From the NCBI GenBank assembly GCA_026708035.1, contig JAPOVQ010000019.1, positions 1-64,000 of the forward strand: a DNA stretch of 64,000 nucleotides, read 5' to 3'. The position numbers and the translations under genes were made by a program. The DNA is from Chloroflexota bacterium (GTDB lineage: Bacteria > Chloroflexota > UBA11872). Positions within the stretch are counted from its first letter, which is position 1. Every line of letters starts with the position of its first letter. Under the pieces are notes generated by a model. That model was not told where the DNA came from. It ran no database searches and saw only the letters and a list, made by a program, of their open reading frames with translations. Below, in pieces: positions 5,893-17,452 of the stretch.

Positions 5893-6186
5893 GTAGGGGC
5901 GGGTTTCAAACCCGCCCGCGCCCGACCATGTCGATGCCGGCCACGGCGCGATCCGGCCGCCACAGACCCCGCCTCGATACGGGCAGCCACAAGGGCTGCC
6001 CCTACACCGATTCACTTCCCGTAGGGGCGCCTCTTGTGGGCGCCCGTCCGCGCATTTGGGGCAGCCGCAAGGGCTGTCCCTACACCCGCTTACCGCCGAT
6101 GCCGACTCATCCCGAGTAGGGGCGCCCCTTGTGGGCGCCCGTGACGTCCGGCTGATCCCCTGTACGGGCGCCTCTTGTGGGCGCCC
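5893..6186. repeat. Cluster of six palindromic GTAGGGGC repeats
   Basis: Six short palindromic elements are packed into this gap: GTAGGGGCGGGTTTCAAACC... (5893-5918), two copies of the GGGCAGCC..GGCTGCCCCTAC type on the opposite strand (5981-6005, 6059-6083), and three GTAGGGGCGCC..TTGTGGGCGCCCG copies (6021-6046, 6116-6140, 6161-6186). Each can form a hairpin and begins or ends with GTAGGGGC or its complement. They resemble REP-type elements. Nothing coding is visible between 5849 and 6250. Confidence 0.85.
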
Positions 6187-6250
6187 GTCCGGTGGCGCAA
6201 CTCGCCGAGGCGGAACACCGGCCGCTATGGGTCTAACTCCCTTAACGACC

Positions 6251-6295: not shown

Positions 6296-7960
<1,665 letters not shown>

Positions 7961-8153
7961 GCTGTCGTTCCTCCGACCAGCCCGTTATCGGTGCATGCGC
8001 GTCGGGGCCTCTCGCATTCTGCCGGCGAGGGCGCCCGACGCCACGGCAAGGGCTTTGGGGTGTCTTGGTGCGAATTGCGCACTAGGTCCGTCCGCAAAAT
8101 TGTAGGGAGCGCCCAAGTCGAGCGTCAAGCATGATTGGCCAGCGCGGCGCCCG

Positions 8154-8882
8154 TTAGCGCTCCGGCGCCTCGAGTTCGCCGATCCGCTCGAAGTCCGCCC
8201 ACCACTCCACGTCGTCGGGCAGGTCGGAGATGTGCAGCACGACCTCGCCGGGGGTGAAGACGGCCATCCGCTCCCCGAGGTCCTGGGCCCCTTCCCTGTC
8301 AGCGGCGACGTAAATGTGCGCCCAAGTGCTGCCCGACCAGCCCGCACCGCCCCTGCCGTTGACGCTATTGAGGTTGACGGTCGGGATGTTGCCGACCTCC
8401 GGCGGCGCGTAGTCGGTGAATCGCACGTCCACGATCCACAGGCCCTCGGAGAGCAGCTCGACCGGCTCCGATGGCTCGGGGCCGGTCCCGCGGATTTGCG
8501 TGGAGGTCTGCGTGACGGTGGTGGTCGATTCCGTGAAGCCGCGACCCAGCTCGCTCGGTGGGAGCTCGCGCGGGTCAGCGTCCTCGACCGGGACCTCACG
8601 AACCCTTTCGATCTCACGAACCACGGCGGAAGACGTGAAGCCGCCCTCCACGGTCTCGACCGGGACTTCGCGAATCACTTCTGATATCACGATCTCGGCG
8701 TCCGACGTGAACTCCGAAACTTGACTCGTGGCCAGCTCGAAGAATTCCCCGGCCAGGGTGTAGGTGTGCAGCGTCGCAAAGTGGTGGGCGGCCGTGAACA
8801 ACGCCGTCGCTGAAAGCGCTCCGGCGATCACCACGGCGGCCAGCGTCAGCAGGCCGCGCTCGATGCGACTGAGATGTTCCAT
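8154..8882 (-). CDS. Membrane-anchored protein with EVPVE stalk (module 1)
   Basis: This gene encodes 242 residues of unknown function. Residues 8-33 form a membrane anchor (GLLTLAAVVIAGALSATALF). The following region contains REVPVE-type repeats (VIREVPVETV, VREVPVEDAD). The C-terminal 100 residues form a likely beta domain (ELLSEGLWIVDVRF to GEVVLHISDLPDDVEWWADF). It is clearly paralogous to the 211-residue protein at 9927-10562 along its whole length. GGAAGGAG precedes the ATG. A perfect 15-bp stem hairpin lies just upstream of the ribosome-binding site. It is the last gene of a module that starts with two hydrophobic micropeptides. The predicted topology puts the beta domain outside the cell. 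Confidence 0.75.
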   Translation of the reverse strand: MEHLSRIERGLLTLAAVVIAGALSATALFTAAHHFATLHTYTLAGEFFELATSQVSEFTSDAEIVISEVIREVPVETVEGGFTSSAVVREIERVREVPVEDADPRELPPSELGRGFTESTTTVTQTSTQIRGTGPEPSEPVELLSEGLWIVDVRFTDYAPPEVGNIPTVNLNSVNGRGGAGWSGSTWAHIYVAADREGAQDLGERMAVFTPGEVVLHISDLPDDVEWWADFERIGELEAPER

Positions 8883-8907
8883 TGGGATTGCTCCTTCCGT
8901 TAAGTCA

Positions 8908-9065: not shown

Positions 9066-9137
9066 TCACGGCGGACGTTTCCGTAGATTCAGCACGGCCG
9101 GCAGGACGACGATCAATGGCCGCTCAATCGGGCCCAC
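9066..9137 (-). CDS. GPIE-type micropeptide, degenerate copy
   Basis: A 23-codon frame from GTG 9137 encodes MGPIERPLIVVLPAVLNLRK and ends three residues later. It occupies the same relative position as the 29-residue GPIEFLII peptide at 10587-10676, directly after the 30-residue peptide gene, and shares the GPIE core and hydrophobic helix. The frame is short and Pro-containing, so it may be a decayed copy. A ribosome-binding site is not obvious. Confidence 0.35.
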   Translation of the reverse strand: MGPIERPLIVVLPAVLNLRKRPP

Positions 9138-9140
9138 GAC

Positions 9141-9233
9141 TTACCCCGCGACGCCCGCGCTGGCAACGGCGGTAGCCGCCAGCCAGATTCCCACGACGAT
9201 CAAGGCCATCGCTCCGAGAAGACGGCGTCTCAT
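9141..9233 (-). CDS. 30-residue hydrophobic micropeptide (module 1)
   Basis: This small gene encodes MRRRLLGAMALIVVGIWLAA followed by TAVASAGVAG: three N-terminal arginines and a single membrane helix. AAGGAG lies 6 bp upstream of the ATG, so translation is credible. A homologue of the same length lies at 10680-10772 (M-K/R-RRLL, WLAATAV, SA-AG conserved). The genes have the same order in both places: micropeptide, GPIE peptide, EVPVE membrane protein. The function is unknown; a membrane micropeptide partner or a signal-type peptide are possibilities. Confidence 0.6.
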   Translation of the reverse strand: MRRRLLGAMALIVVGIWLAATAVASAGVAG

Positions 9234-9312
9234 GGTCGGGCTCCTTTTCCGGTCCGTCCCACCGGGCCCGCGGGACCGGAAACCCGCCGGCCCGACGCGC
9301 CTCGGCTACGAG

Positions 9313-9552
9313 TCATGACGACCGATGGACTCGGAACGTGCGCCACAGCGCCACGACCCCCGCGATCACCAGGGGGATGCCGAGCGCCACGGCGAGTCGC
9401 TGAGCGGTCGGCAGGGTGATCGGCAGTCGGGAGCCGGGCACGGGGTCGATTGGATCTTGCGCGCCTAGACGCGCGCCGAGACAGGCCAAGAGGAGCACCG
9501 CCACGATTCCGCCGCCGACCACGGCCCGTGCACGAGTGAGTACGTGAGGCAT
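9313..9552 (-). CDS. Small two-helix membrane protein
   Basis: This gene encodes 79 residues with two predicted membrane helices: AVVGGGIVAVLLLACLGARL and LAVALGIPLVIAGVVALW. The ATG at 9552 is preceded by AGGAGGAAGGAGG. The upstream region and first 26 codons are duplicated at 12388-12403 and beyond, where the second copy stops after 29 residues. It is divergently transcribed from a decayed copy of the 12526 gene. The function is unknown. The second helix and basic C-terminus place both ends on the same side of the membrane. Confidence 0.6.
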   Translation of the reverse strand: MPHVLTRARAVVGGGIVAVLLLACLGARLGAQDPIDPVPGSRLPITLPTAQRLAVALGIPLVIAGVVALWRTFRVHRSS

Positions 9553-9674
9553 CGGGGCCTCCTTCCTCCTGGCGATCGTCGTTGACCACCTATCGGCACC
9601 GTAGCTCGCAGAATTCCATATAGCAACTCCGTCGTCAAGGTTCTTACACAGATGTCGGGTGCTATCGTCGCGGC

Positions 9675-9810
9675 ATGCTGTCGCGTGTTGAGCGGGCGTC
9701 TATTTGACCACGGCGCTGGTGGTCATTGTGGCGATCCTGTGGCCGCTGGTCCGCGATGAATTGGACCGCGCGCCGCTGGTTCAGCTAGCGCCACCGCCCG
9801 CAGCGACGGC
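9675..9810 (+). pseudogene. Frameshifted remnant of the 12526-13008 gene
   Basis: The sequence from ATG 9675 encodes MLSRVERA, then, after a one-base loss, continues in another frame as YLTTALVVIVAILWPLVRDE and LDRAPLVQLAPPP. This parallels the start of the intact gene at 12526 (MLSRFERVVYLATALVVIMA, ILWPLVRDELDRAPL). Homology ends around 9810, where the opposite-strand peptide at 9781-9900 takes over, so the C-terminal domain is gone. Confidence 0.75.
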
Positions 9811-9900
9811 GATCACGACGATGGCGATGACGGACAACGCCATCAAGGGGATGATCAGGAACTCAATCGGGCCCAGCTCCTTGTCAATCGTGCACCCCAA
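9781..9900 (-). CDS. GPIE-type hydrophobic micropeptide
   Basis: A frame of up to 39 residues contains DKELGPIEFLIIPLMALSVI followed by AIVVIAVAAGGGAS. The LGPIEFLII core is identical to that of the 29-residue peptide at 10587-10676. The start is uncertain: TTG at 9900 is the only standard start in frame, without a good ribosome-binding site, and an AAGGAG sits inside the frame. It lies directly downstream of the 211-residue membrane protein. It is possibly a decayed copy, although the hydrophobic helix is well preserved. Confidence 0.45.
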   Translation of the reverse strand: MGCTIDKELGPIEFLIIPLMALSVIAIVVIAVAAGGGAS

Positions 9901-9926
9901 AGCCACCCACCGCCCACCGGCGCCCG

Positions 9927-10562
9927 TTAGCGCTGGGGCATCTTGAGTTCGCCAAGTCGCTCAAACTCCACCCACCAGGCGACATCGTCCGGAAGGTCCG
10001 AGATCTGAACCACGACCTCACCGGGTGCAAACACGGCCATCCGCTCGCCCAGGACTTGCGCCCAATCGCTGTCGGCCGTGACATAGAGGCGATTCCACCA
10101 GTCCTCCGACCAGGCGACTCCGCCATCGCCGCTGATGCTGGTCACGCTCACGCTCGGGAATGGCTCTACGTCCGGCGGCTCGTCGTCCACGAAGCGAACG
10201 CTGACAAGCCATAAGCCCTCGGACAGCAGCTCGAGTGGCTCTGTGGGCTCCGAGCCGACACCGTCAATACTCCGAAACTCCTGCGTGACGGTGCTGGTCA
10301 TCTCCATGGAGCCGCGAATGGGGCGCACGGGGACGCTCTCAACCGGGACTTCCCGCACCACCTCTGTCACGAGCCGAGGCTCGCTCGTAAACTCCCCCAC
10401 CTGGCCCGTGGCCAGCTCGAAGAAATCCCCGGCCAGGGTGTAGGTGTGTAGCGTCGCAAAGTGGTGGGCGGCCGTGAACAACGCCGTCGCCGACAGGGCT
10501 CCGGCGATCACCACGGCGGCCAGCACCAGCAGAACGCGCTCGATCCGGGTGAGGTGCGTCAT
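9927..10562 (-). CDS. Membrane-anchored protein with EVPVE stalk (module 2)
   Basis: This gene encodes 211 residues paralogous to 8154-8882. The anchor VLAAVVIAGALSATALFTAA is almost identical, and the stalk contains VTEVVREVPVESVPV. The C-terminal beta domain runs from ELLSEGLWLVSVRF to GEVVVQISDLPDDVAWWVEF. It is shorter than its paralogue because the stalk has fewer EVPVE repeats. A weak AGTGAGTG precedes the ATG at 10562. It is the last full gene of a compact chain with the 166-residue protein and the two micropeptides upstream. The function is unknown. Confidence 0.75.
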   Translation of the reverse strand: MTHLTRIERVLLVLAAVVIAGALSATALFTAAHHFATLHTYTLAGDFFELATGQVGEFTSEPRLVTEVVREVPVESVPVRPIRGSMEMTSTVTQEFRSIDGVGSEPTEPLELLSEGLWLVSVRFVDDEPPDVEPFPSVSVTSISGDGGVAWSEDWWNRLYVTADSDWAQVLGERMAVFAPGEVVVQISDLPDDVAWWVEFERLGELKMPQR

Positions 10563-10586
10563 CGGTCACTCACTTTCGTTTGTGGC

Positions 10587-10676
10587 TCAGCGTCGAAAGC
10601 CGCGCCATATCACGGCACCGACGATGAGCGCCAGAACCAAGATGATGAGGAACTCGATCGGTCCCAGGTGCTCCAT
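10587..10676 (-). CDS. 29-residue GPIE-type membrane micropeptide
   Basis: This gene encodes MEHLGPIEFLIILVLALIVG then AVIWRGFRR: one membrane helix and a basic C-terminus. It starts 3 bp after the stop of the 30-residue peptide and ends 24 bp before the 211-residue gene. The GPIE..LII helix superficially recalls the TatA N-terminus, but the FG hinge and amphipathic helix are absent, so I do not call it TatA. Related frames lie at 9781-9900 and 9066-9137. Confidence 0.6.
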   Translation of the reverse strand: MEHLGPIEFLIILVLALIVGAVIWRGFRR

Positions 10677-10679
10677 GGC

Positions 10680-10772
10680 TTACCCGGCGATGCTCGCGCT
10701 GACCACGGCCGTTGCCGCCAGCCAGACCCGGACGACCATCAGGGCTGTCGCGGTGAGGAGTCGTCGTTTCAT
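10680..10772 (-). CDS. 30-residue hydrophobic micropeptide (module 2)
   Basis: This gene encodes MKRRLLTATALMVVRVWLAA followed by TAVVSASIAG, homologous along its length to the peptide at 9141-9233. TAGGAG, formed by the stop of the upstream 166-residue gene, lies 7 bp before the ATG, so the two genes are probably translationally linked. It has a single helix with an Arg in the middle (VVRVW), unusual for a membrane-spanning segment. Confidence 0.62.
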   Translation of the reverse strand: MKRRLLTATALMVVRVWLAATAVVSASIAG

Positions 10773-10782
10773 GGTGAATCTC

Positions 10783-11283
10783 CTAGCTGCTCGCATAGTC
10801 GCCGGGGCACACCTGCCGCCGAAAGTCCACGACCCACGCCTCGTCGGTGTCCACGCTCAGCGTCATGGGCCCCGCCGGCAGGACAGGCGTATCGACGATC
10901 CTCGCGCGATCCGCCTCGTCGAGGGGCAGGACGCTGATCACGTTCTGGATGCCCGTCCAGGTCCTGATGACGGGTCGCACGTGGCTGGCCAGCGTCACGG
11001 GATGTTCCTCGCCGCCGCCGCCCAGCACCTGCCATACCCCAGGGCCCAACTCGATGGTCACTTCCTCGCCGGGATCGCCTTCAATGTGCTGGTTGCCGTC
11101 AAGCACGATCGACTCGACCTCGATCGGGTCATTGGAATATCCGGTTTGCGCGAGCCGCGTAAACGTTCGCCGCTGCAGCTCGGCGCCGACGGCGTCGAAG
11201 ACGACGGCGGCGCCGATCAGCACCAGAGCGAGGGTCGCCACCGTCATGGCGGTGGCGGTCAGCGTGGGTCGTGGTAGGCGCAT
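10783..11283 (-). CDS. Membrane-anchored protein of unknown function
   Basis: This gene encodes 166 residues with one N-terminal membrane helix (MTVATLALVLIGAAVVFDAV) and an extracytoplasmic beta-rich domain. The pattern LGPGVWQVLGGGG to LPAGPMTLSVDTDEAWVVDF matches the layout of the C-terminal domains at 8154, 9927 and 12526 (hydrophobic-G-aromatic strand; P-G turn; final strand with D/E..W..F), suggesting distant paralogy. GGAG precedes the ATG. It heads the run of micropeptide genes. Confidence 0.6.
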   Translation of the reverse strand: MRLPRPTLTATAMTVATLALVLIGAAVVFDAVGAELQRRTFTRLAQTGYSNDPIEVESIVLDGNQHIEGDPGEEVTIELGPGVWQVLGGGGEEHPVTLASHVRPVIRTWTGIQNVISVLPLDEADRARIVDTPVLPAGPMTLSVDTDEAWVVDFRRQVCPGDYASS

Positions 11284-11617
11284 GAGGGTCTCCTTCGGTT
11301 AGTCATCGGCACTGCCCGGGCGCTCAATCGTCACCGTCGCACGCCATCGACGATCGGCGAGAACGGCGATGATGAGCCGCCCGCCAAGAATCAGCATTTC
11401 AATGCCGTTGAGAACGAAGCCCCGGTGGCGAGCGTTCTCAAGATGATCTTGTCGACGGTCACGGTGCTTTGAAGAACCTGTGGCCGGGCCGGTGAGCGGT
11501 TAGTCCCACCGGCCCGGCGCATGTGGCCACTCCTCAGGCAGCCCGAACGCTCGGCGCGCTCGCCTCATCCACTGTCGCCGAGGAGATGGCTGTACCAACT
11601 ACAGCCCCGACCGGCAT
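11284..11617. other. Gene-poor gap with hairpin and possible peptide remnant
   Basis: A perfect 12-bp stem (GCCGGGCCGGTG and its complement, 11483-11518, 12-base loop) sits about 100 bp after the secreted-protein gene and may terminate it. On the minus strand, ending at the TAA near 11300, a short frame reads LNGIEMLILGGRLIIAVLAD, weakly reminiscent of the GPIE peptides. I see no convincing start codon, so it is not listed as a gene. Confidence 0.45.
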
Positions 11618-12223
11618 CTAGAGCCACTCCGACTCGTAGGTGACCTCGCTGTCGGTGACGCCGTCCCCGTACTGCTCTTTCCAGATCTTGGTGATGTCAA
11701 GAACGTTCACGCAGTCCTGAAGCGGGGGGCAGAGGCGGAATTTCCCACGCCCCGTGTCCTCGTGGTAGTTGTGGCCAACCCCGCCAGCCGTCGTCTCCAC
11801 ATGGTCGTCATAGGCGGTCCACGGCCAATTGACGGAATCGATGTCCCCGGTGACTTCCTTCCAGGTCAGGATCTTGGTCGTGTTGTTCGCGCACCAGAGG
11901 GTCTTGGTCCAGTAGGAGCCCTTTTCATCCGAGTGGCGGAGATAGTGCGACCAGCAGGTCTGATGATGCATCAGCCAGTCGCCCGGTACGAGATTCGCGT
12001 CGATCTCTTCAACCGTCGACACGACCGTCAGACCATCGTGTGTCACGCGAATGGTCGTGCCCACTTGCTGATCGTCGATCGTGACTATCGGCTTCCCCTC
12101 AGCATCGCGGCTCAAGGTCACGTTTTCGGGGATCTCGCCCGATGGCGTCTGCGCCCCGGCGGTCCCAACGCCGAAGACCGCGAGCACCAGCAGCAGGCTG
12201 AGTCGCAGGGCGAGTTTTTTCAT
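11618..12223 (-). CDS. Secreted protein of unknown function
   Basis: This gene encodes 201 residues with a clear Sec signal peptide (MKKLALRLSLLLVLAVFGVG, cleavage near TAGAQ). The mature part begins with a small beta region (VTLSRDAEGKPIVTIDDQQV) and continues with a Trp/Cys-rich region (HHQTCWSHYLRHSDEKGSYW; LWCANNTTK; FRLCPPLQDCVN), whose four cysteines could form two disulfides. The open frame extends upstream, but ATG 12223 has GAGGAGA just before it and starts the signal peptide. No family is recognised. Confidence 0.7.
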   Translation of the reverse strand: MKKLALRLSLLLVLAVFGVGTAGAQTPSGEIPENVTLSRDAEGKPIVTIDDQQVGTTIRVTHDGLTVVSTVEEIDANLVPGDWLMHHQTCWSHYLRHSDEKGSYWTKTLWCANNTTKILTWKEVTGDIDSVNWPWTAYDDHVETTAGGVGHNYHEDTGRGKFRLCPPLQDCVNVLDITKIWKEQYGDGVTDSEVTYESEWL

Positions 12224-12313
12224 GACTGGTCTCCTCTCGTTTCTGTTTGATGACCTCAAGCGTCCCGTTGACGACGCCAAGGTCCACGTTCCGTAGTTGG
12301 GAACGCGCGAGGG

Positions 12314-12403
12314 TCAACGTCTCGCGACCAAACAGGCCAAGAGGAGCACCGCCAGGATTCCGCCGCCGACCGCGGCCCGTGTGCGGGTGAGTACGTGAGG
12401 CAT
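12314..12403 (-). CDS. Truncated paralogue of the two-helix membrane protein
   Basis: This frame encodes MPHVLTRTRAAVGGGILAVL followed by LLACLVARR, then a stop. The first 26 residues match the 79-residue protein at 9313-9552, and the upstream DNA is also duplicated. It has lost the second helix. With 29 residues and a good upstream AGGAAGGAGG it could still be translated as a membrane micropeptide, or it is a decayed copy. Confidence 0.5.
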   Translation of the reverse strand: MPHVLTRTRAAVGGGILAVLLLACLVARR

Positions 12404-12525
12404 CGGAGCCTCCTTCCTCTAGGCGATCGTCATTGACCACCTATCGGCACCGTAGCTCGCAAAAATTCATCTATCAACTAGCTCCTAAAGAACTTTTCAC
12501 TGTTATGAGGTAATATCGTCGCCTC

Positions 12526-13008
12526 ATGTTGTCTCGATTCGAGCGGGTCGTGTATTTGGCTACAGCACTCGTAGTCATTATGGCGATCCTGTGGCCGCTG
12601 GTCCGCGATGAGCTGGACCGCGCGCCGCTGGCGCCCCTGGCGGAACCGCTGGCGTTGGCGCCCCCGGCCGCGAGCGCCAGCGCGCCCTTCCCATCCTTTG
12701 GCGCCGAGAACGTCAACATCAGCGGCGTCGGCCCCGACTCACAGACGCTGGAGCTTGGCGCCGGCGTCTACGTCGCCTTGGTTTACGGCGACACAACGGA
12801 CCTCGACGTGACCATGCGAACCCTCGACGGGCGCAGCACCATGACCTGGGGCCAAACGACGCATGCGTCGTTTGCGGTGGGCGATCACGTCGAGGCCTCG
12901 CTCTATCCGGGGCCGACGCGCATCGACGTCGTCCCACCAACGGATTTCACCCGATGGGGCATCCGGTTCGAGCGCTATGCCTATCCGGAATCGGAGGCGC
13001 GCCCCTAG
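12526..13008 (+). CDS. Membrane-anchored protein of unknown function
   Basis: This gene encodes 160 residues with an N-terminal membrane helix (VVYLATALVVIMAILWPLVR), an Ala/Pro-rich linker (residues 35-60) and a beta domain with LELGAGVYVALVYG and PTRIDVVPPTDFTRWGIRF. The domain shares its strand/turn layout with the proteins at 8154, 9927 and 10783. A frameshifted copy of its start lies at 9675. It is divergent from the truncated micropeptide at 12314. No ribosome-binding site stands out; GAGG lies 17 bp upstream. Confidence 0.65.
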   Translation: MLSRFERVVYLATALVVIMAILWPLVRDELDRAPLAPLAEPLALAPPAASASAPFPSFGAENVNISGVGPDSQTLELGAGVYVALVYGDTTDLDVTMRTLDGRSTMTWGQTTHASFAVGDHVEASLYPGPTRIDVVPPTDFTRWGIRFERYAYPESEARP

Positions 13009-13112: not shown

Positions 13113-13550
13113 ATGCGCCTGTCCATGCGAAGCGACTACGGGGTCCGCGCCCTCACGGACCTCGCGATGCACCACGGGCAAGGACCGATCCAAAGCGCGG
13201 ACGTGGCGCGGCGCATGTCCATTCCGCCGGTGTACCTGGACCAGGTGTTCAGCGCGCTCCGCAAGGCCGGGCTGGTGCGCAGCACGCGCGGACCGCAGGG
13301 CGGCCACGAGCTGGCGCGCGGACCCGATGCCATCACCATGAGCGACATCGTCACCGTGCTCGAAGGCCCGCTGCCGATCCTCGATTGCCTGGAGGACGCC
13401 TCGGCCTGCGACTTGACGGACACGTGCTCGCAGCGACCCGTGTGGGGGCGCGTGCGGACAGCCATCCTGACCTCGCTCGAGGCGGTCAGCCTGGCCGAGC
13501 TGGCCGTCGACATGCAGGAAGCCCGCGAGCGGCCCGCCTACAGCATCTAG
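13113..13550 (+). CDS. Rrf2-family transcriptional regulator, probable Fe-S sensor
   Basis: This gene encodes 145 residues. The N-terminal winged helix is typical of Rrf2 proteins (MRLSMRSDYGVRALTDLAMH; IPPVYLDQVFSALRKAGLV; STRGPQGGHELAR). Three cysteines in the segment DCLEDASACDLTDTC are positioned like the cluster ligands of IscR/NsrR-type members, so an Fe-S or nitrosative-stress sensor is likely. Two bases separate its stop from the next gene, forming an operon with a JAMM peptidase and LarE, which points to sulfur metabolism. Confidence 0.9.
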   Translation: MRLSMRSDYGVRALTDLAMHHGQGPIQSADVARRMSIPPVYLDQVFSALRKAGLVRSTRGPQGGHELARGPDAITMSDIVTVLEGPLPILDCLEDASACDLTDTCSQRPVWGRVRTAILTSLEAVSLAELAVDMQEARERPAYSI

Positions 13551-14864: not shown

Positions 14865-14891
14865 GGACGGCTCTACCCGAATCCTCTCGGT

Positions 14892-14997
14892 GTAGGGGCA
14901 GCCCTTGTGGCTGCCCGCCGCGGCCTCCCGAGGGCGCCCACCAGGGGCGCCCCTACAGCAAACGAGATCACGTAGGGGCAGCCCTTGTGGCTGCCCG
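14892..14997. repeat. Three GTAGGGGC palindromic repeats
   Basis: Two direct copies of GTAGGGGCAGCCCTTGTGGC... (14892-14917 and 14972-14997) flank an opposite-strand GGGCGCCC..GGGGCGCCCCTAC element (14934-14957). They fill the gap after larE and could act as its terminator. Confidence 0.8.
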
Positions 14998-15046
14998 TTC
15001 GAATGGCCCTGCCCTATCGCCGGAGTCAATTCAAACTGACGCCCGG

Positions 15047-16763: not shown

Positions 16764-17024
16764 ATGACCGATTGGCCCCTGCATGACGCCAAGAACCGAT
16801 TCAGCGCCCTGGTCGATGCGGCCCTCGCCGGCGATCCCCAGCGAGTGACCCGCCGGGGTAAGCCCGCGGTCGTGGTGCTGGCCGTCGAGGAGTACCAACG
16901 GCTGTGTCAGGCTGAGAAGGCTGGCGCGCCCACGTTCATCGACCATTTGCTCGCCATCCCCAAGGGCGGGCCGGATGACCTGTTCGATCAGGCCCCGGTA
17001 AAGCTTCGCGACGTGGAGTGGTGA
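16764..17024 (+). CDS. Phd/YefM-type antitoxin
   Basis: This gene encodes 86 residues beginning MTDWPLHDAKNRFSALVDAA and containing PQRVTRRGKPAVVVLAVEEY, the classic Phd/YefM N-terminal fold. The C-terminal LFDQAPVKLRDVEW should wrap the toxin. Its stop overlaps the toxin ATG (TGATG). Confidence 0.9.
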   Translation: MTDWPLHDAKNRFSALVDAALAGDPQRVTRRGKPAVVVLAVEEYQRLCQAEKAGAPTFIDHLLAIPKGGPDDLFDQAPVKLRDVEW

Positions 17025-17452
17025 TGTATCTGCTTGATACCAACGTCGTTTCCGCCCTGCGCCGGCCCGACCGTCACCAGGGGCCAATCGCCTGGATTCA
17101 GGCCCAGCGGCCGTCCGACGTGTTCCTGAGCGTGGTGACCGTCGGCGAGATCGAACGCGGCATCGCCCGGCAGCAGCACCGCGATCCGTCGTTTGCGCGG
17201 GAGCTGTCAGTCTGGCTGGACCGGGTGCTCACCTGGTACGGCGACCGCGTGCTCGGTGTCGACGTGCCGACCGCCCGGCGCTGGGGTCGAATGTCCGGTG
17301 ACCTCGGGCACGAATCCGCGGACCTGATCATCGCGGCCACGGCGCTGGAGCACGGCCTGACTGTAGTGAGTCGGAACACCAGGCACTTCGAGCCCGCAGG
17401 CGTCGAGGTGTTCAATCCGTTTGGCGGAAGCGAGGAGTCCGACGACGGCTGA
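17024..17452 (+). CDS. PIN-domain toxin (VapC/FitB type)
   Basis: This gene encodes 142 residues: MYLLDTNVVSALRRPDRHQG, with the acidic Asp in LLDTN, Glu in VGEIERGIARQ, and ESADLIIAATALEHGLTVVS near the C-terminus, followed by RNTRHF. These are the Mg-binding and fold residues of VapC RNases of the FitB group. Two GTG codons precede the ATG in frame; the ATG at 17024 is preferred because it gives the standard MYLLDTN start and couples to the antitoxin stop. Confidence 0.9.
   Translation: MYLLDTNVVSALRRPDRHQGPIAWIQAQRPSDVFLSVVTVGEIERGIARQQHRDPSFARELSVWLDRVLTWYGDRVLGVDVPTARRWGRMSGDLGHESADLIIAATALEHGLTVVSRNTRHFEPAGVEVFNPFGGSEESDDG

Follow-up and report, generated by a model that had tools for sequence, protein, structure and literature searches.

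Near-identical upstream regions are known to recur before different genes in prokaryotes and are discussed as promoter propagation, or putative mobile promoters. In a second known class of elements, the 5' leaders that sequester the Shine-Dalgarno sequence, RNA thermometers included, a hairpin pairs this sequence with the start-codon region. We describe here a repeated segment that can be compared with both, found in a 64,000-nucleotide (nt) stretch of DNA from a Chloroflexota bacterium (GenBank assembly GCA_026708035.1, contig JAPOVQ010000019.1, positions 1 to 64,000 of the forward strand; hereafter "the window"). The segment occurs twice between groEL and a gene for an Rrf2-type regulator. 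Our best overall explanation, which on balance we accept, is that a family of minus-strand operons, present in several copies, shares this segment as its head, and that two operons of different types, L and R, have here been joined, most likely by recombination in the shared head.

As in promoter propagation, homologous upstream regions precede non-homologous genes within one genome (eight heads here). Unlike that system, the present unit adds RNA hairpins and about 27 codons and is found mostly ahead of membrane-protein operons of one class; no transposase could be linked to the head, although no systematic transposase search was made. As in Shine-Dalgarno-sequestering leaders, a hairpin (P2) covers the Shine-Dalgarno sequence by conserved predicted pairing, but its partner is the start codon together with codons 2 and 3. 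Rfam has no family matching 12300-12600 at E≤10, and over the whole window nothing but a tRNA reached the gathering score. In kind the head resembles known leader RNAs, and as a leader RNA it appears to be new. A general-term search of open-access PubMed Central articles found nothing on such a leader or gene family, and descriptions may still be in print. If the explanation is correct, the family would provide, across the lineage, natural recombinants that carry promoter, leader RNA and signal-anchor codons as one package, and regulation and export would therefore arrive with the transferred unit. It would also point to an RNA element open to testing and to a peptide of 30 residues that is under strong purifying selection and that annotation may skip.

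Organization and distribution of the repeated segment

Positions 9472-9797 and 12323-12649 form a direct repeat of 82.0% identity over 327 alignment columns (E = 1.75e-88 when the window and three loci were searched). A first-pass annotation of this DNA had described a duplicated divergent gene pair, and both the repeat and the states of its open reading frames (ORFs) are as it described them. On the left the minus-strand ORF of 79 amino acids (aa) is intact, while the plus-strand ORF stops 10 codons after its ATG at 9675, the cause being a 1-base gap near 9697. On the right the plus-strand ORF is intact at 160 aa and the minus-strand ORF has only 29 aa. Similarity between the two segments extends well past the start codons: the left copy's resemblance to the right plus gene fades out near 9780-9800, approximately 40 codons into the plus ORF, and on the minus-gene side the homology boundary falls at 9472/12323, after about codon 27. 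Because similarity ends at this point, the stop of the right 29-aa ORF coincides with the homology boundary and does not lie inside a recognisable 79-aa gene. Around the pair there is a larger repeated layout, in which 8145-8885 resembles 9918-10565 (in pieces) and 9134-9245 resembles 10673-10784.

The repeated head contains promoter-like hexamers, the 5' hairpin P1, hairpin P2 and about 27 signal-anchor codons. The features of the two copies, with the divergent plus genes, are as follows.

9598..9626, minus strand: left head, TTG-type -35-like and TACGGT -10-like hexamers, 17 bases apart (aligned in 19 copies)
9571..9590, minus strand: left 5' hairpin P1, GGUGGUC / GAUCGCC (both-side changes in 4 of 7 pairs)
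9546..9561, minus strand: left hairpin P2, GAGGC (Shine-Dalgarno) with GCCUC (base pairing, covariation)
9313..9552, minus strand: left leader ORF, 79 aa (full-length homologues in four of five relatives)
9675..9797, plus strand: start of the plus gene, truncated and frameshifted copy (homology to the right plus gene)
12449..12477, minus strand: right head, promoter-like hexamers 17 bases apart (copy alignment)
12422..12441, minus strand: right hairpin P1 (pairing in aligned copies, folding)
12397..12412, minus strand: right hairpin P2 over the Shine-Dalgarno sequence (pairing, folding)
12314..12403, minus strand: right leader ORF, 29 aa (ORF list)
12526..13008, plus strand: plus gene, 160 aa, transmembrane (TM) helix and beta-sandwich (same family as the larger minus-strand genes; ratio of nonsynonymous to synonymous divergence, Ka/Ks, 0.27 against the same-genus genome G004)

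The TTG...TACGGT hexamers, with their 17-base spacing, lie upstream of P1 and are conserved in the aligned head copies (n = 19); this conservation suggests that they act as a promoter. Within the head's own genome, BLAST found five copies of the head or of its first 138 bases. A covariance model built from 19 aligned copies found eight heads in the same genome, at 65-94 bits (next best 20 bits), and these open ORFs of 29-79, 276-307 and 65 aa that belong to different families. Among 61 genomes, searched with stricter filters that can lose weak matches, heads of at least 34 bits were found in seven, namely all six of the genus and G010, one of 13 genomes of the sister genus. Nineteen of the 23 heads at this threshold had built the model; the P1 stem is kept in all of the other four (G010, G005:C7, G005:C5:27026 and G001:C59). 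No exact match of the head pattern was found in viral contigs.

The ORFs opened by the heads vary widely. A 38-aa leader ORF is shared between species (C30a and G005:C10a), as is one of 44 aa (C11, G001:C64 and G002:C24). Elsewhere the head opens ORFs of 276-312 aa (C14, C26, C36 and G005:C7), 169 aa (G005:C5b) or 65 aa (C30b and G005:C10b), and in G010 the ORF that it opens has 41 aa, with a GPIGF peptide of 28 aa after it. The left 79-aa ORF has its full-length homologues in G004, G002, G003a and G001; pairwise Ka/Ks over the whole ORF is 0.53-1.3, indicating weak or no constraint.

Two further observations concern the head. The coding stretch GTGCTCCTCTTGGCCTGT (9481-9498 and 12332-12349, minus strand) is the same, base for base, in 12 of 14 heads, and the other two depart from it by one base; it is conserved at wobble positions as well, though the adjacent codons diverge, and may be under a further constraint at the RNA level. 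Facing heads approximately 3 kb apart surround beta-domain genes at C30:202151(+)/205318(-) (locus L007) and at G005:C10:349588(+)/352710(-) (locus L063), a layout that is the same in two species.

The two leader hairpins

In P1, 91.7% of the 133 alignment cells are paired, and four of the seven pairs have changed on both sides (11 cells), as against none in slid controls. P2 was counted in 17 of the 23 strong heads, the six left out (C26, C36, C30b, G005_C7, G005_C10b and G001_C59) belonging to other subfamilies that were aligned apart. In these 17 copies 98.8% of cells are paired; the strand opposite GAGGC of the Shine-Dalgarno sequence runs from the G of AUG through codon 2 to the first base of codon 3. 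One P2 pair has changed on both sides in seven of the 17 copies, being G-C in nine, A-U in seven and G-U in one. Because this pair covaries, codon 2 shifts with the Shine-Dalgarno sequence: CCU/UCU (Pro/Ser) goes with GGAGGC/GGAGAC, and C14 has the G-U mix. RNAalifold, given 14 copies, found both P1 and P2 unaided; the third stem that it proposed, in the coding region, has no both-side changes and is not claimed. When short leaders were folded alone, P1 appeared in six of seven, and the left P1 folds as a 47-mer.

P2 would lower translation until it is opened. It may behave as a thermometer, the two pointers being the nearby groEL and the 5-base-pair stem. More broadly, we put forward as a tentative proposal that the two-hairpin leader RNA, with its promoter and signal-anchor codons, is a new unit with which this bacterial lineage multiplies and reshuffles operons for surface-anchored beta-sandwich proteins and the constrained 30-residue membrane peptide; all copies would then stand under one translational control, perhaps thermal given groEL nearby, and the second residue of the protein would be tied to the Shine-Dalgarno sequence by pairing.

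Relationship of the two copies

In a tree of six head copies (200 bootstraps; G003b, G001 and copies outside the groEL interval left out), the left copy of the window and G004 are separated from the rest at 90%, and the right copy groups with G005 at 86%. The tree of the unit for the 30-aa peptide encoded in both operons (10 copies) splits an L type, comprising the left copy, G004, G002 and G003a, from all others at 93%, with G005 outside the L clade. The approximately unbiased (AU) test rejected a sister relationship of the left and right copies both in the six-copy head set (p = 0.0145) and in the ten-copy set of 30-aa units (p = 0.00027). The right 30-aa unit is 84.5% identical to that of contig C11 in the same genome, compared to 71.8% with the left one. 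The local duplication in this lineage that the first-pass annotation had proposed is not supported, and both the trees and the AU tests led us to reject a recent local duplication.

Compared with G004, the left minus gene shows a silent divergence of 0.16, groEL of 0.17, rrf2 of 0.19 and the right plus gene of 0.42; the last value differs from those of the left minus gene, groEL and rrf2 at Fisher p = 0.004, 2e-5 and 0.007, respectively. The right plus gene is therefore farther from G004 than are its flanks. At sites that differ between L and R, G004 agrees with L at 20 and with R at 9 in 9610-9730, and with R at 8 and L at none in 9731-9797, a switch that would be expected if a crossover within the plus-gene start had brought in the R operon.

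The same interval in related genomes

groEL and the Rrf2-type gene flank the interval in all five same-genus genomes searched. Its length is 5,152 bases in the window, 2,344 in G004, 1,473 in G002, 3,526 in G003, 1,271 in G005 and 3,466 in G001, and the gene sets within it differ among the six genomes. In G004 the interval carries a single divergent pair whose two genes are intact (minus 79 aa, plus 160 aa), so that a single-copy pair of the kind that the annotation had suggested looking for in relatives does exist. In G002 and G003 the minus gene is intact at 92 aa and the plus gene is broken; G003 also has a second head in the interval, with a different gene set and different ends. The plus gene is truncated in G005, where the minus ORF has 46 aa, and almost gone in G001, where the minus gene has 83 aa. 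In the DNA search of the relatives four candidates per genome were scored, and absences there mean little.

The plus gene is thus broken, truncated or nearly deleted in four of the five relatives, and three of these four (G002, G005 and G001) carry a single head in the interval. Since the decay is also seen in single-head relatives, loss of the plus gene does not track duplication, to which it had been tied.

Origin of the tandem arrangement

Under the explanation that we favor, the tandem pair between groEL and the Rrf2-type gene would consist of an L-type operon, resembling that of G004, and an R-type operon, whose head groups with that of G005 and whose 30-aa gene lies outside the L clade, with contig C11 among others. 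The two would have been joined by recombination in the shared head or in the adjoining start of the divergent plus gene, so that the left head would keep a severed fragment of the plus gene and the right head the whole gene. After the head, such operons would continue either with a short leader peptide followed by varying membrane peptides and anchored beta-sandwich proteins, or directly with a longer exported protein. Two old versions of the head and operon in tandem explain the pattern better than does loss after a recent duplication.

Several observations weigh against this explanation or its RNA component. A strict sigma-70 scan calls no site at the left or right hexamers. P1 is absent from the optimum of one of the seven short leaders (C30b) and from that of the 127-nt left leader, and four 127-nt leaders were no more stable than shuffles. 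Of five hairpin measures, two (double-change pairs and pair types) were matched by 54 of 500 shuffles when P1 was taken by itself and by 39 and 50 of 500 when both stems were counted; one P1 pair is unpaired in nine of 19 copies. Support for P2 comes from one covarying pair, and gene conversion could spread this pair along with the segment. Some heads are not intact: G003b has ACG for ATG, the ORF of G005_C5a has just 13 aa, and no start codon was found in the G001_C59 head. Within the non-L group the 30-aa unit tree gives the right copy no firm place, and the G005 unit is nearly equidistant (80.0% to L and 80.9% to R). No preference of G004 for L is seen in 9472-9609 (4 L, 7 R); G002 and G003a lack a clean switch between L and R; clear homology ends before the whole of 9731-9797 is covered; and the switch in G004 can also have arisen as the left plus fragment decayed.

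Four other explanations were weighed against these data. A tandem duplication of the whole operon in the ancestor of the genus, after which species lost L or R and the left plus fragment was cut at the joint from the start, is possible, though we think it somewhat improbable. It would account for the 30-aa peptide being followed by a beta-domain gene in both operons, for the L-type 30-aa units in G004, G002 and G003a with that of G005 outside the L clade, and, through a tandem joint within the plus gene, for one cut and one whole copy. It sits poorly with an R unit that is nearer to contig C11 than to L, with a plus gene whose silent divergence exceeds that of its flanks, and with the second head of G003. 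An operator role for the inverted repeats, as DNA sites for a regulator of the operons and not as RNA hairpins, is in our judgment unlikely. P1 is indeed a 7-base inverted repeat near promoter-like hexamers, and its copies could form one regulon, but G-U pairs are retained in it, the stem sequence varies while the pairing stays, and P2 takes in the Shine-Dalgarno sequence and codons 2-3.

Duplication of the divergent pair in this lineage with complementary degenerative loss, which the first-pass annotation read as subfunctionalisation, appears less plausible again. The complementary pattern itself stands, each gene having one intact example across the two copies of the window, and the intact single copy of G004 would suit this scenario; its reading as reciprocal loss is not supported. 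The trees do not join the copies as sisters, no division of a gene's functions between them was seen, and, despite the frameshift in the left plus gene, both "lost" genes end at homology boundaries. Plus-gene decay in single-head relatives also speaks against it. The right 29-aa ORF was not adopted as a broken 79-aa gene, since leader ORFs of 38 and 44 aa are conserved across species elsewhere; it is shorter than these yet not far off, and so not clearly a broken gene. Last, an assembly artefact joining two alleles of the locus is highly improbable. The assembly consists of 36 contigs and could be a metagenome bin, but G003 independently has two heads in the same interval and heads recur at other loci with different genes. 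Joining of the L and R operons at the head is retained as our most likely explanation, and it would imply that apparent reciprocal gene loss can arise from recombination at a shared operon head.

Gene content of the two operons

The interval is flanked by groEL (6296-7960, minus strand; named from sequence) and the Rrf2-type regulator gene (13113-13550, plus strand; Pfam Rrf2, E = 3.1e-38). Direction and spacing of the genes suggest two putative minus-strand operons in tandem, reading toward groEL, with one transcript per row. The L operon comprises the head, the 79-aa ORF, a 30-aa peptide and a 242-aa beta-domain protein. In the R operon the head is followed by the 29-aa ORF, a 201-aa protein, a 166-aa beta-domain protein, a 30-aa peptide, a GPIEF peptide, a 211-aa beta-domain protein and a second GPIEF peptide. 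The genes downstream of the leader ORFs are:

9141..9233, minus strand: 30-aa membrane peptide, L type, MRRRLLGAMALIVVGIWLAATAVASAGVAG (Ka/Ks 0.05 against G004, 0.07 against G002)
8154..8882, minus strand: TM-anchored beta-domain protein, 242 aa, L operon (family alignment A3, hidden Markov model, HMM)
11618..12223, minus strand: 201-aa protein with a signal-peptide-like start (relative fused directly to the head at contig C14)
10783..11283, minus strand: TM-anchored beta-domain protein, 166 aa, R operon (family alignment, HMM)
10680..10772, minus strand: 30-aa membrane peptide, R type (sequence comparison)
10587..10676, minus strand: GPIEF membrane peptide, 29 aa (ORF, sequence comparison)
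9927..10562, minus strand: TM-anchored beta-domain protein, 211 aa, R operon (family alignment, HMM)
9781..9906, minus strand: GPIEF membrane peptide, 41 aa, adjoining the joint with the left copy (ORF, sequence comparison)

Positions 9771-10364 match an island of G001 at 70.7%. One beta-domain gene (G000 contigs C27/C34, G005:C10:524-1090 and G015:C36) matches 9942-10264 of the window at 82-83%; this match spans two genera and is above expectation for a fast-changing family.

Membrane peptides and beta-sandwich proteins

Within its type the 30-aa peptide is strongly constrained (Fisher p = 0.0005 and 0.0001 for the ratios against G004 and G002). Of 21 pairs compared, five with G003a (L057) were misaligned by one codon and left unused; Ka/Ks is 0-0.07 in the six same-type pairs and 0.17-0.67 in the ten between-type pairs.

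The beta-domain family was found in 15 of the 61 genomes: all six of the genus, nine of 13 in the sister genus and none of 42 elsewhere. For the four beta-domain genes of the window (8154-8882, 9927-10562, 10783-11283 and 12526-13008) neither Pfam nor NCBIfam gave a family at E≤1. AlphaFold2 predicts for the plus gene a TM helix and a beta-sandwich, with a mean predicted local distance difference test score of 81 and values of 87-97 per ten residues in 61-150. The solved folds nearest to this domain are the C-terminal beta domain of Tk-SP (Z 8.2/8.0) and the collagen-binding domain of ColG (Z 7.8), with many other folds within 1 Z unit and unrelated folds common at Z of about 8. We take both of these domains to be filed as PPC-like. 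Unlike them, the domain described here is TM-anchored and stands alone, and it belongs to no Pfam family at the threshold above, PPC included. The 211-aa protein had no match among plasmids and phages; scans of genome contigs matched one named relative, the Chloroflexi metagenome-assembled genome COS2_bin_4, at residues 136-209. The products are most likely envelope or surface proteins, whose repertoire would change by exchange at the heads.

Several minor features were noted in addition. Less than 2 kb from the beta-domain genes of C11, an ORF at L006:10658-10993 (minus strand) resembles, by eye, part of a tyrosine recombinase. Short dispersed repeats, partly inverted (core GTAGGGGCGCCCCTTGTGGGCGCCC), flank the groEL-Rrf2 region at 6000-6191 and 14871-15001. 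Farther on, overlapping plus-strand ORFs at 16764-17024 and 17018-17452 look, by eye only, like an antitoxin and PIN-domain toxin pair.

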